A DNA stretch of 64,000 nt. It comes from Cryomorpha ignava. GTDB lineage: Bacteria > Bacteroidota > Bacteroidia > Flavobacteriales_D > Cryomorphaceae. The position numbers and the translations under genes were made by a program. Positions 8,834-12,388 of the stretch are shown piece after piece. The notes beneath the pieces are model-generated. The model saw only the letters and a list, made by a program, of their open reading frames with translations, was not told where the DNA came from and ran no database searches. The stretch's first letter is position 1. Every line of letters starts with the position of its first letter. Location: assembly GCF_010686655.1 (NCBI RefSeq), contig NZ_JAAGVY010000009.1, forward strand, positions 1 to 64,000. Reading direction: 5' to 3'.

Positions 8834-9129
8834 TCTCAAGATTCATAATTATCATTTAAACTAAAATCGGTAAGTTGATGATTATTTTTTTGGTCAGTGT
8901 AATTTAGGCATCATCAGCTTGTAGCTTGTAGCTATTTCCAGCCATTCCTTCGCGCACCCCAACCCTGAAGGGAGTCAACCGCACATCTTGGGCATAAGAG
9001 TAATTTTTCCCACTACACTTATCGACTTACCAGCGAAGCGTTCTCCTAGAATTGTTTAGAAACTAGACTCGCATGAAAAAACTTGAGTCCTAATATACAA
9101 AGTTTAAGCTGGAATGTTTACCTCAAATT

Positions 9130-10412
9130 CTAAAGGTCCATACGGATTCCCTCTTGTCTTAAGGTGTCTTATGTTTGTAGGAGAAAAAAATTATATAATC
9201 CGGGAATCGACCCTGTCCATACGGATTCCCTCTGGTCTTAAGGAGTCGCATGTTTGTAGGAGAAATATTACGGGATTAGAAAACCGACTCTGTCCATACG
9301 GATTCCCTCTGGTCTTAAGGCGTCGTTTGGTTGTAGAAATATGATTTTTGAATATGGCCATATCGACCCTGTCCATAAGGATTCCCTCTTGTTTTAAGGC
9401 GTCGTATGGTTGTAGGAGAAAATTATATAATCCGGAAATCGGCCCTGTCCATACGGATTCCCTCTGGTCTTAAGGAGTCGCATGTTTGTAGGAGAAATAT
9501 TATGGGATTAGAAAACCGACCCTGTAAGGCGTCGTACAAAATCATCATACAAATTATAAAAAACCAAATTGTGCGACGCCTTACAGGGTCGTCGGACGCC
9601 ATCAAATCATTAAACCTACAAACATTTGACACCTTACAGGGTCAAATGGTTCAATCTAAAACAAAATATAAATTTGAAAACAAATCGGCTCATTATTATA
9701 GATTTTTTTTTGTTTTGAGCGCTACGAGTTAAGAATTTCCGAATCTTTTCCCAACGCTTTACGGCGTCGTATGTTTGTAATAATGTGAATTTTGACTATG
9801 GCCATATCGACCCTGTCCATACGGATTCCCTCTGGTCTTAAGGCGTCGTTTGGTTGTAGGAGAAAATAATTTGATTCGCAAACCGACCCTGTCCATTCGG
9901 ATTCCCTCTGGTCTTAAGGCGTCGTATGTTTGTAGGAGAAAATAATTTGATTCGCAAACCGACCCTGTCCATACGGATTCCCTCTGGTCTTAAGGCGTCG
10001 TATGGGTGTAGGAGAATATAATTTGGTTCGAAAACCGACCCTGTAAGGCGTCGCATATTTGTAGTAATATGATTTTTGAGTGAGCCATATCGACCCTGTC
10101 CATACGGATTCCCTCTGGTCTTAAGGCGTCGTATGTTTGTAGTACTATGAATTTTGAGTCTAGCCATATTGACCCCGTAAGTAGTCGCATGGTTGCAGGA
10201 GAAAATTATATAATCCGGGAACCAACCCTGTAAGGCGTCCTATGTTTGTAGTACTATGATTTTTGAGTCTAGCCATATCGACCCTGTAAGGCGTCGCATA
10301 TTTGTAGTAATAAGATTTTTGAGTGAGCCATATCGACCCTGTAAGGCGTCGCATGTTTGTAGTAATATGATTTTTGACTATGGCCATATCGACCCTGTAA
10401 GGCGTCGCACAA
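9130..10412. repeat. Left REP-like tandem array (short and long hairpin units)
   Basis: About 17 units. Core short unit is CGACCCTGTAAGGCGTCG: arms CGAC/GTCG and CC/GG form a stem with one bulged C and a 5-nt loop, the classical imperfect REP fold. Long units carry an extra 23 bp between CCCTGT and AAGGCGTCG (for example 9215-9237), enlarging the loop. After the hairpin comes YATGTTTGTAG and then one of a few shared spacers (for example TAATATGATTTTTGAGTGAGCCATAT, here described in part, or GGAGAAAATTATATAATCC). Periods are about 55 bp (short) and 78 bp (long). Spacers recur, so this is a tandem repeat, not CRISPR. Units at 10280-10400 are all short form. Confidence 0.9.
9517..9840. repeat. 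324-bp duplicated segment, copy A (with inverted REP pair)
   Basis: Starts with a REP (9517-9534) and its inverted partner near 9571-9590, separated by about 36 nt, then a third inverted REP-like core near 9628-9645. The whole segment recurs at 11053-11377 with only a few substitutions and one base difference in a T run. It resembles a BIME or a non-autonomous derivative of the Y1 transposon: its 3' REP and following bases (CAAATG.TTCAATCTA) resemble the sequence flanking tnpA at 10445-10480. Confidence 0.85.
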
Positions 10413-10465
10413 CATCTTAAGTGCAAATTCCAAAAATTAAATGGTATGACGTCTTACTGGCCAAA
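10391..10465. repeat. Inverted REP pair downstream of the Y1 transposase gene
   Basis: A forward REP at 10391-10408 (CGACCCTGTAAGGCGTCG) is followed by a degenerate inverted partner near 10444-10461 (GGTATGACGTCTTACTGG). This pair sits just beyond the 3' end of the minus-strand transposase gene and mirrors the pair at 11053-11126 on its 5' side. Likely transposon end or BIME. Confidence 0.7.
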
Positions 10466-10513
10466 TGTTTCAATATCTACCATGGTCAATTTATAAATTT
10501 GCAACCTGCCACC

Positions 10514-10981
10514 CTAATCTTCTATCCATTTAAACAAATATTCATCCTTAAATTCAATATCATGATCTTGCAACATTTTTATGTATTCATCTTTAAACCT
10601 TACTGTTTTGTGATGCTCCTTCTGATTATGTATGTATTTTACTACCCTATCAATATGCTCTTTAGAATACGAAAAACCCGCGCCACCTACCTGCCAATTG
10701 AATTTCGCCTTCGTTAATCTGTTTTCATTGATCCATGTATTGCTTGATTTTTTTACTTCTCTAAGCAAATCAGACGGGCAACAGCTTAGTTTGGTTCCGA
10801 CAAATAAATGCAAATGATCGTACGAACCATTTATGGACAATACTTTCTGATTTTTTTTGGTGACAATCCCAGTTATGTATTTATACAAATCTTCCTCCCA
10901 TTTTTCGGAAATTAAACTTCTTCTACCATCAACTGCAAAAACAAACTGAATATAAATTTGAGAAAATGTACCAGGCTCCAT
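10514..10981 (-). CDS. IS200/REP-associated-type tyrosine (Y1) transposase
   Basis: 155 aa, the usual length for IS200-like TnpA. The HUH motif is HLH in SYDHLHLFVG (about residue 56-58). The catalytic Tyr is in VVKYIHNQKEHH (about residue 120). Such enzymes cut single-stranded DNA next to a hairpin, with Tyr covalently bound to the 5' end. No tnpB is present. The gene is bracketed on both sides by inverted REP pairs and long REP arrays, the arrangement known for RAYT (REP-associated tyrosine transposase) genes. The sequence is otherwise typical of the Bacteroidota IS200-like group. All catalytic residues I can recognise are present, so it may be active. Confidence 0.9.
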   Translation of the reverse strand: MEPGTFSQIYIQFVFAVDGRRSLISEKWEEDLYKYITGIVTKKNQKVLSINGSYDHLHLFVGTKLSCCPSDLLREVKKSSNTWINENRLTKAKFNWQVGGAGFSYSKEHIDRVVKYIHNQKEHHKTVRFKDEYIKMLQDHDIEFKDEYLFKWIED

Positions 10982-11052
10982 AATATAACTTTTAAGGGTT
11001 TTTTATCTATACAAGATATAAATTTCAGAGAAATGTGAATTTTGAGCCCTTT

Positions 11053-11377
11053 CGACCCTGTAAGGCGTCGTACAAAATCATCATACAAATTATAAAAAAC
11101 CAAATTGTGCGACGCCTTACAGGGTCGTCGGACGCCATCAAATCATTAAACCTACAAACATTTGACACCTTACAGGGTCAAATGTTTCAATCTAAAACAA
11201 AATATAAATTTGAAAACAAACCGGCTCATTATTATAGGTTTTTTTTTTGTTTTGAGCGCTACGAGTTAAGAATTTCCGAATCTTTTCCCAACGCTTTGCG
11301 GCGTCGTATGTTTGTAATAATGTGAATTTTGACTATGGCCATATCGACCCTGTCCATACGGATTCCCTCTGGCCTTA
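11053..11377. repeat. 324-bp duplicated segment, copy B
   Basis: Near-identical to 9517-9840. Begins with the inverted REP pair 11053-11070 / 11107-11126 and includes a degenerate REP near 11295. It lies immediately 5' of the minus-strand Y1 transposase gene. The two copies are about 1.54 kb apart and in direct orientation. Confidence 0.85.
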
Positions 11378-11832
11378 AGAAGTCGCATGGTTGTCGGAGA
11401 AATATGATGGGATTAGAAAACCGACCCTGTAAGGCGTCGCATATTTGTAGTAATAAGATTTTTGAGTGAGCCATATCGACCCTGTCCATACGGATTCCCT
11501 CTGGTCTTAAGGCGTCGTATGGTTGTAGGAGAATATAATTTGGTTCGAAAACCGACCCTGTCCATACGGATTCCCTCTGGTCTTAAGGCGTCGTATGGGT
11601 GTAGGAGAATATAATTTGGTTCGAAAACCGACCCTGTAAGGCGTCGCATATTTGTAGTAATAAGATTTTTGAGTGAGCCATATCGACCCTGTAAGGCGTC
11701 GCATGTTTGTAGTAATATGATTTTTGACTATGTCCATACCGACCCTGTAAGGCGTCGCATATTTGTAGTAATAAGATTTTTGAGTGAGCCATATCGACCC
11801 CGTATGGCGTCGTATGTTTGTGAGAGAATATT
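11378..11832. repeat. Right REP-like tandem array
   Basis: About eight further units of the same short and long types as the left array: long near 11480 and 11559, short near 11425, 11630, 11687 and 11744, and a degenerate last unit CCCCGTATGGCGTCG near 11799. The spacers (GAGTGAGCCATAT-type and TTGGTTCGAAAAC-type) are shared with the left array, showing that both sides expanded from the same units. Confidence 0.88.
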
Positions 11833-12388
11833 ATTAGATTTAAAAATCACACACTGGCACGTCATTAGTGCATTACCTTACATGCGCACTCCCATCCGTA
11901 CGCACTCCAGCTGGTCGAAGGTCGTCGGTGAGATCGCTGCTAAGTGCGTGGCTATTTTCATTTCATCACTTTTCGTATATTTCCAGAAAAAATCAGCGCA
12001 ACACATCTATTCCACTTCACCCTTTGCGACCTAAACCAAAAAAAACCAACTCATCATTTCTCAGCGATCTCTGCGTATTTCTTTGCGCCTTTGCGTTAAA
12101 ACTCATAAGCGCGTCAGCGCTACCCAAGAGCTAAAATCTAAAATTTCTAACTTCCCTAAGCACGAAGCTTCTCTCCAAACGAAGCAATGAATAACTACGC
12201 AACCCATCAGCAAACCAACAATAAAGGCGGGAAAATATTCACATTCCCGATTTTTCTTTCGCTTTCCGAAACAAAAAATATACCTTTCGCCAAACTTTAC
12301 CAATTAACCAAGACACCCGTAGTTTTTTCAGCTACCTAAAATGAAGGGTTGGGAAAAATAGAACGGGTGTTGCTATATTAACTGTTTT
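11833..12388. other. Gene-free stretch before the SusC gene
   Basis: No supported gene. 12065-12115 contains GCGATCTCTGCGTATTTCTT followed by TGCGCCTTTGCGTTAAAA, a repeat type often found between genes in environmental Bacteroidota. A minus-strand open frame at 12103-12303 has no recognisable features. The promoter of the SusC/D operon should lie in 12300-12385; TTGGG at 12346 and TATATTAA near 12374 are a weak candidate. Confidence 0.5.

Follow-up and report, generated by a model that had tools for sequence, protein, structure and literature searches.

A hairpin array around a predicted subclass 1.2 Y1 transposase gene in Cryomorpha ignava: a putative REPtron-like system of Bacteroidota

The window analysed here, a stretch of 64,000 nucleotides from Cryomorpha ignava, holds a dense array of hairpins around an intact gene for an HUH/Y1 transposase, TnpA. 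The arrangement suggests that tnpA and the hairpins form one mobile system. Our preferred reading, to which we give a probability of roughly 0.7, is a REPtron-like single-stranded DNA system of TnpA-Y1 subclass 1.2, in which the array units would be the cognate recognition modules of the enzyme. The association of this subclass with hairpins seems to be the unusual part and appears not to have been reported before.

The array at 9130-11812 contains at least 31 hairpins, with a chance expectation of 0. Allowing up to three mismatches, the core CGACCCTGTAAGGCGTCG matches the window at 16 places, every one inside 9517-11812, and 100 dinucleotide shuffles gave no match. A wider annotation gave 31 hairpins in the window, 30 of them inside 9130-11812, and overlooked one more degenerate A unit at 11289-11306. 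An earlier sequence-only reading had described about 25 units sharing an 18-nt core; the array proved real and at least as large as now counted, but the uninterrupted core is common to the short units only, since about 12 units are of a 41-nt long form, CGACCCTGT[CCATACGGATTCCCTCTGGTCTT]AAGGCGTCG, with a 23-nt insert in the loop. Indeed, that reading was right about the two hairpin sizes, about the link of REP/BIME-like hairpins to an HUH/Y1 transposase gene, which they flank, and about the single bulged base in the stem, a bulged C in a core folding at -3.5 kcal/mol. Short units recur every 55-56 nt and long units every 76-79 nt, which leaves a near-constant gap between hairpins of either size. 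Most units are of type A, with a TTTGTAG box or a one-base variant of it shortly 3' of the hairpin; the five hairpins of type B (Table 1) carry no box and continue with TAC or CAC. As for the two inverted pairs reported beside the gene, the one at 11053-11127 forms a perfect 23-bp stem (z = -8.5 for 11053-11180), whereas the right arm of the one at 10391-10465 is degenerate. A twin of the perfect pair, absent from the earlier reading, lies at 9517-9591.

Table 1. Positions of tnpA, hairpins and larger units in the window
Feature	Position	Strand	Remark
tnpA, HUH/Y1 transposase, 155 aa, intact	10514..10981	-	TnpA-Y1 subclass 1.2 signature
Proposed parent element, A> B> - tnpA - (extra B>) <B <A	10334..11180		outer limits inferred
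Quartet A>(long) B> <B <A without tnpA, proposed miniature form	9440..9644		same layout on contigs C1, C6, C8, C42
B hairpin, tnpA 3'-end side	10390..10407	+	
Extra B hairpin, tnpA 5'-end side	11053..11070	+	
Inverted B hairpin	11110..11127	-	23-bp stem with 11053-11070
Inverted A hairpin	11152..11180	-	box TTTGTAG
B hairpin, copy without tnpA	9517..9534	+	
Inverted B hairpin, copy without tnpA	9574..9591	-	
Inverted A hairpin, copy without tnpA	9616..9644	-	box TTTGTAG
Five tandem long A units	9130..9491	+	9130, 9208, 9285, 9364, 9440; period 76-79 nt
Left A array	9752..10362	+	long 9808, 9884, 9960, 10091; short 10036, 10223, 10279, 10334; degenerate short 9752, 10170
Right A array	11289..11833	+	long 11345, 11477, 11553; short 11422, 11629, 11684, 11740, 11795; degenerate short 11289
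Block copy 1 (B><B<A, then A array)	9517..10407		81% to copy 2, 850 columns
Block copy 2	11053..11821		aligned with block copy 1

A genome-wide search for the core, proposed earlier as a check, found, on other contigs, six exact copies and 17 that differ at one or two positions (0 for the reversed pattern used as control). The core is therefore not confined to this array, and the refuting condition attached to that reading, a core present only here, does not hold. Quartets of the form A> B> <B <A without tnpA occur on contigs C1, C6, C8 and C42; their hairpins, boxes and spacings are alike and their spacer sequences differ, and the quartet on C42 adjoins a 23-residue tnpA remnant. Like REPs, the units are short, intergenic, dispersed and often in inverted pairs. 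REPs usually exceed 100 copies per genome, in contrast to the 39 cores (up to two mismatches) and 47 matches to the box with a GTC foot (control, 4) found here in a 149-contig assembly that may undercount them, and this modest copy number counts against our reading. A different, CGCGCACCCCAACCCTGAAGGGAGTCAACCGCACATC-like palindromic repeat, possibly of another family, adjoins two quartets, at 8953-8990 in the window and at about 1700-1740 in locus L004.

The genome encodes six further TnpA homologues, which are 31-46% identical or fragments, some broken and none near-identical. Several of these paralogues adjoin hairpin families of their own, such as GTCCCGTTAGGGAC and GTGCCAGAGGCAC, and the divergent ones have other hairpins without the exact box. 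One divergent paralogue (locus L035 on C11) lies in an array of several palindrome families, including GGGCTAAAGCCC (eight copies) and GTCCCTACGGGA (seven), and this array equals the one in the window in density. Elsewhere (L223, C48:1-14000), ten boxed A-type hairpins lie on one strand (2482, 2909, 6847, 7165, 7388, 7700, 9437, 9803, 10287 and 10771) within direct repeats of 300-480 bp, in a cassette-like layout between toxin-antitoxin-like genes, which we take by eye to be HipA-like, RelE/HigB-like with XRE-ImmA/IrrE-like, and Xre-like with RES-like. A variant A> B> pair, GACCCGGTACGGTGTC / GACCCTGTAAGCGGTC, occurs in a 272-bp tandem unit (L227, C1:174564-174892), and single copies related to it are found on C12 and C72.

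The composite module that flanks relatives of this gene across Bacteroidota consists of hairpin A with a 7-bp stem and a 3-nt loop, 4 nt, a TTTRTAG box, about 23 nt and hairpin B. The box lies 3' of hairpin A, unlike GTAG, and a search over a wider range of offsets placed it at one single offset in all 71 of 71 boxed strict hairpins. Because the hairpin motif had been picked after seeing some loci, we also used a box-anchored test that makes no prior choice of hairpin. In this test the 17-mer at the fixed offset formed at least five of seven pairs at 154 of 279 TTTRTAG sites near tnpA, compared with 7 of 140 distal sites and with 1-16 of the 279 near sites when the offset was shifted by 1-4 nt. 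A second hairpin followed A within 75 nt in 131 of 201 cases, and the gap was 19-27 nt in 123 of these 131 (5-75 nt searched). Modules are grouped as triplets, as arrays or as quartets of the form A> B> <B <A. Triplets of A>, B> and inverted A' form direct arrays in Pedobacter, Algoriphagus, Cyclobacteriaceae and others, and genera other than Cryomorpha show alternating A/B or A/B/inverted-A units.

The earlier reading took arrays of this kind to seem unusual in Bacteroidota, a view that our survey of draft genomes, one per species, does not support. Among 392 sampled genomes, 170 have a TnpA homologue, and 57 of about 100 loci examined have one or more boxed hairpins of this design within 900 bp of tnpA; that the strict boxed form is present at only this share of loci speaks against our reading. 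We retrieved 80 named tnpA loci for hairpin comparison and counted the motif GA-N4-loop-N4'-TC. Within 800 bp of tnpA its density was 1.60 per kb; farther off in the same loci it was 0.13, and shuffles gave 0.14. When only the non-coding DNA of the named loci was considered, the values were 3.24 and, distally, 0.087 per kb (about 37 times, p = 1.6e-32), a p-value that, like the others given here, is optimistic, since some of the counted loci had served to choose the motif and the kinship of genomes was ignored. A blunter count of generic hairpin clusters gave three or more in 24 of 89 loci and in 0 of 237 controls. The strict boxed pattern was found in 13 of 392 genomes (reversed pattern, 0), 12 of which have TnpA (p = 2.8e-4 against 170 of 392 overall), and the true support is weaker because four of the 13 belong to one genus and are not phylogenetically independent. 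Positions left free by the pattern were complementary in 34 of the 37 matches listed.

Moreover, loci with more distant TnpA proteins tend to have more distant hairpins (Mantel r = 0.38, p = 2e-4), a correlation that vertical inheritance of the flanks alone could yield. Within the family, the exact core occurs only in the C. ignava genome and four relatives have a TnpA homologue, a pattern that enzyme-specific hairpins would produce. Where boxed hairpins lie on both sides of the gene within 450 bp, 14 of 17 loci have the order A> tnpA <A with the boxes facing tnpA (p = 1.1e-6), and tnpA, as the layouts read, sits at quartet centres. A looser count of the nearest hairpin on either side gave inward orientation at 48 of 81 loci (p = 0.12, not significant), because many loci carry arrays on one side.

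The array in the window consists of one block present twice, as diverged copies (9517-10360 and 11053-11821, 81% alike over 850 columns) on either side of tnpA. At 9517 the left flank switches precisely where the B hairpin begins, and the roughly 200 bp that follow match 11053 onward at 98%. Such a joint is expected if a tnpA cassette was removed by hairpin-to-hairpin exchange, or if a cassette was gained at the other joint. Slippage or recombination between tandem repeats, with TnpA taking no part, would explain large duplicated blocks with long identical stretches simply, and the block joints fall at hairpins, which are the longest identical words. Growth of the array by recombination alone is therefore quite possible, and the modules could still be substrates of TnpA. 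This account leaves unexplained the dispersed quartets, the A/B or A/B/inverted-A alternation in other genera and the position of tnpA at the quartet centre, and we regard it as a serious possibility below even odds.

We then considered which class of Y1 enzyme is involved. TnpA matches Pfam Y1_Tnp (E = 1.3e-19) and carries the motifs DHLH, WQ and YIHNQKEHH; H56, H58, W96, Q97, Y116, Q120, H123 and H124 are invariant across 38 related proteins. A comparison with PDB sequences gave no match. The AlphaFold2 model (pLDDT 90) has an HUH/Y1 fold and is nearest to the TnpA proteins of ISDra2 and IS608 (E 6e-7 to 1e-6), and the E. coli RAYT 4er8 ranks only 30th (4.6e-5). Subclass 1.2 has been described from Cyanobacteria and Bacteroidetes as having low copy number, no REPs and no IS ends or features (Quentin 2018, PMC6006769). 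TnpA has its Y---Q--HH and WQ motifs, deviates in DH[IV]H by an L in place of I/V, and shows the low copy number with divergent copies (seven matches, best paralogue 46%). It departs from the listing without associated REPs, given the cognate-type hairpins around many members; that listing records what a survey did not find and does not define the subclass. In contrast, class 2 TnpA-REP enzymes carry a tyrosine motif of the Y..NP type, and their REPs have a GT[AG]G foot on the 5' side (PMC6006769), whereas TnpA has YIHNQKEHH, and the repeats carry a 3' TTTRTAG box and no conserved bases 5' of the hairpin. Judged by its motifs, TnpA bears the subclass 1.2 signature, and the earlier label "RAYT-type" is wrong in the strict sense.

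The closeness of TnpA to IS200/IS605 enzymes in fold and sequence raises the alternative of an ordinary insertion sequence of that type with subterminal hairpins, the quartets being MITEs and the array nested insertions. The variable occupancy of one orthologous intergenic site, compared in 13 genomes of one genus, would also suit it. Three genomes (G313, G399 and G401) have tnpA flanked by modules there, one (G391) has modules without tnpA, and in two (G402 and G405) the site consists solely of ordinary intergenic DNA, about 110-120 bp long, with neither. These states indicate gain or loss of the tnpA element, whose exact ends cannot be mapped there because of the 76-83% divergence. Three other genomes carry different small genes or sequence at the site (G404, L252; G278, L250; G407, L251), which may be generally permissive to insertion. 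An ordinary insertion sequence is nevertheless unlikely: the seven genomic copies, 31-46% identical or fragments, are unlike the near-identical copies of an active element; the NCBIfam IS200 score of 48.7 is below the curated cutoff of 55; the ends are inverted hairpin pairs and not the non-inverted LE/RE; and subclass 1.2 is reported to lack IS features (PMC6006769).

In 108 distinct hairpins, five of the seven stem pairs covary freely, with up to four Watson-Crick types, and the A-T at pair 3 is near-invariant. The inner pairs are Watson-Crick in 607 of 648 cases, compared with a mean of 386 when arms were shuffled, an excess inflated by the five-of-seven selection. Among the 648 pairs, G.T (13) hardly exceeds A.C (9), which favours pairing as DNA rather than as one-strand RNA. 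A host function of the hairpins (transcription termination, mRNA stability, or nucleoid or supercoiling control) with tnpA as a passenger would fit their intergenic position and the roles known for classical REPs, but is highly improbable, since no one-strand RNA pairing is kept, no U-run follows the hairpin, hairpin density is at background 1.5 kb from tnpA, and we know of no host role for a fixed box and A-to-B gap.

Several other identities were rejected. The gaps between hairpins are repeated and not unique, as CRISPR spacers would be, and the Rfam matches are all far under the gathering scores (best 29.3 versus 89 bits). There is no matching Rfam family and no G.T excess over A.C for a structured RNA, no U-run for intrinsic terminators, and no matching foot for canonical GTAG or CGTC REPs. 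CGTC repeats are reported to occur without transposases (PMC3733652).

The sequences themselves show the module architecture, the covarying stems, the link to this TnpA group, the dispersal, and the variable presence of the tnpA element at the orthologous site. For the preferred REPtron-like system, we infer from these layouts how TnpA would bind and cleave, where it would cut, in which direction the changes ran and how the array expanded. Modules would be exposed as single strands, as might happen on the lagging-strand template, and a TnpA dimer would bind the A and B hairpins, with Y116 cutting near the box, which may serve as guide or cleavage site. Strand transfer would then move or copy quartets A> B> <B <A, whether or not tnpA lies at their centre, and the quartets without tnpA would be non-autonomous, REPIN- or MITE-like miniatures of the tnpA-bearing element. 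Head-to-tail arrays close to the gene may have grown through successive transfers, or because identical 18-nt hairpins recombined with one another; such growth is proposed because each A hairpin takes the place of the previous unit's B.

A broader proposal, which we rate about evenly balanced, is that subclass 1.2 represents a separate REP-mobilising lineage beside IS200, not derived from class 2 RAYTs and with a code of its own: a two-hairpin module, a 3' box and inverted pairs around tnpA. Its tnpA-less quartets would be miniatures, and the whole would be a single-stranded DNA transposon that ends in inverted hairpins, stands midway between an IS and a REPtron, and is widespread in Bacteroidota. 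Subclass 1.2 was previously seen as an orphan, linked neither to IS nor to REPs. If the modules are its substrates, a second Y1 branch gave rise to REP-like systems or retained them, with a different recognition layout and in a phylum whose REP biology is little studied. The covarying stems and fixed box define short candidate oligonucleotide substrates, which make enzyme-repeat co-evolution testable and, with the same oligonucleotides, the IS-to-REPtron transition directly testable.

We found no published description of these repeats or of the 3' box in the literature searched, which lies outside most subscription journals and figures; literal motif strings returned only primers and unrelated text. 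The TIRtrons, in which tyrosine transposases (TIRYT) are flanked by inverted repeats, some double-palindromic and some forming repeat families (Di Nocera 2013, PMC3733652), may overlap in part with the present repeats. Their motif GGGGWSAS fits GGGGTCAC in several hairpins here. In contrast, the proteins described there are RAYT-like, neither a 3' box nor an A/B spacing is described, and the main text names none of the Bacteroidota genera checked. IS200/IS605 elements (IS608, ISDra2) provide the nearest solved folds and recognize hairpins in single-stranded DNA, as TnpA may do with its putative cognate hairpins, whereas they have non-inverted single-hairpin ends, near-identical copies and a guide 5' of the hairpin, unlike the paired inverted hairpins found here. 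The system resembles subclass 1.2 (PMC6006769) in motifs, length, taxonomic range and low, divergent copy number, and differs from its listing there, which has no REP, by the cognate-type hairpins around many members. REPtrons, in which RAYT/TnpA-REP enzymes of TnpA-Y1 class 2 are paired with GTAG REPs and REPINs (PMC2817692, PMC3116915, PMC8266576), share with it an HUH/Y1 gene amid hairpins of its own, inverted hairpin pairs, dispersed copies, a bulged stem as in E. coli REPs and several enzyme-repeat pairs per genome. The present system differs from them in its predicted subclass 1.2 enzyme (Y...Q..HH), a TTTRTAG box at a fixed 3' offset in place of a 5' GTAG foot, a second hairpin at fixed spacing, a lower copy number and a dense tandem array.
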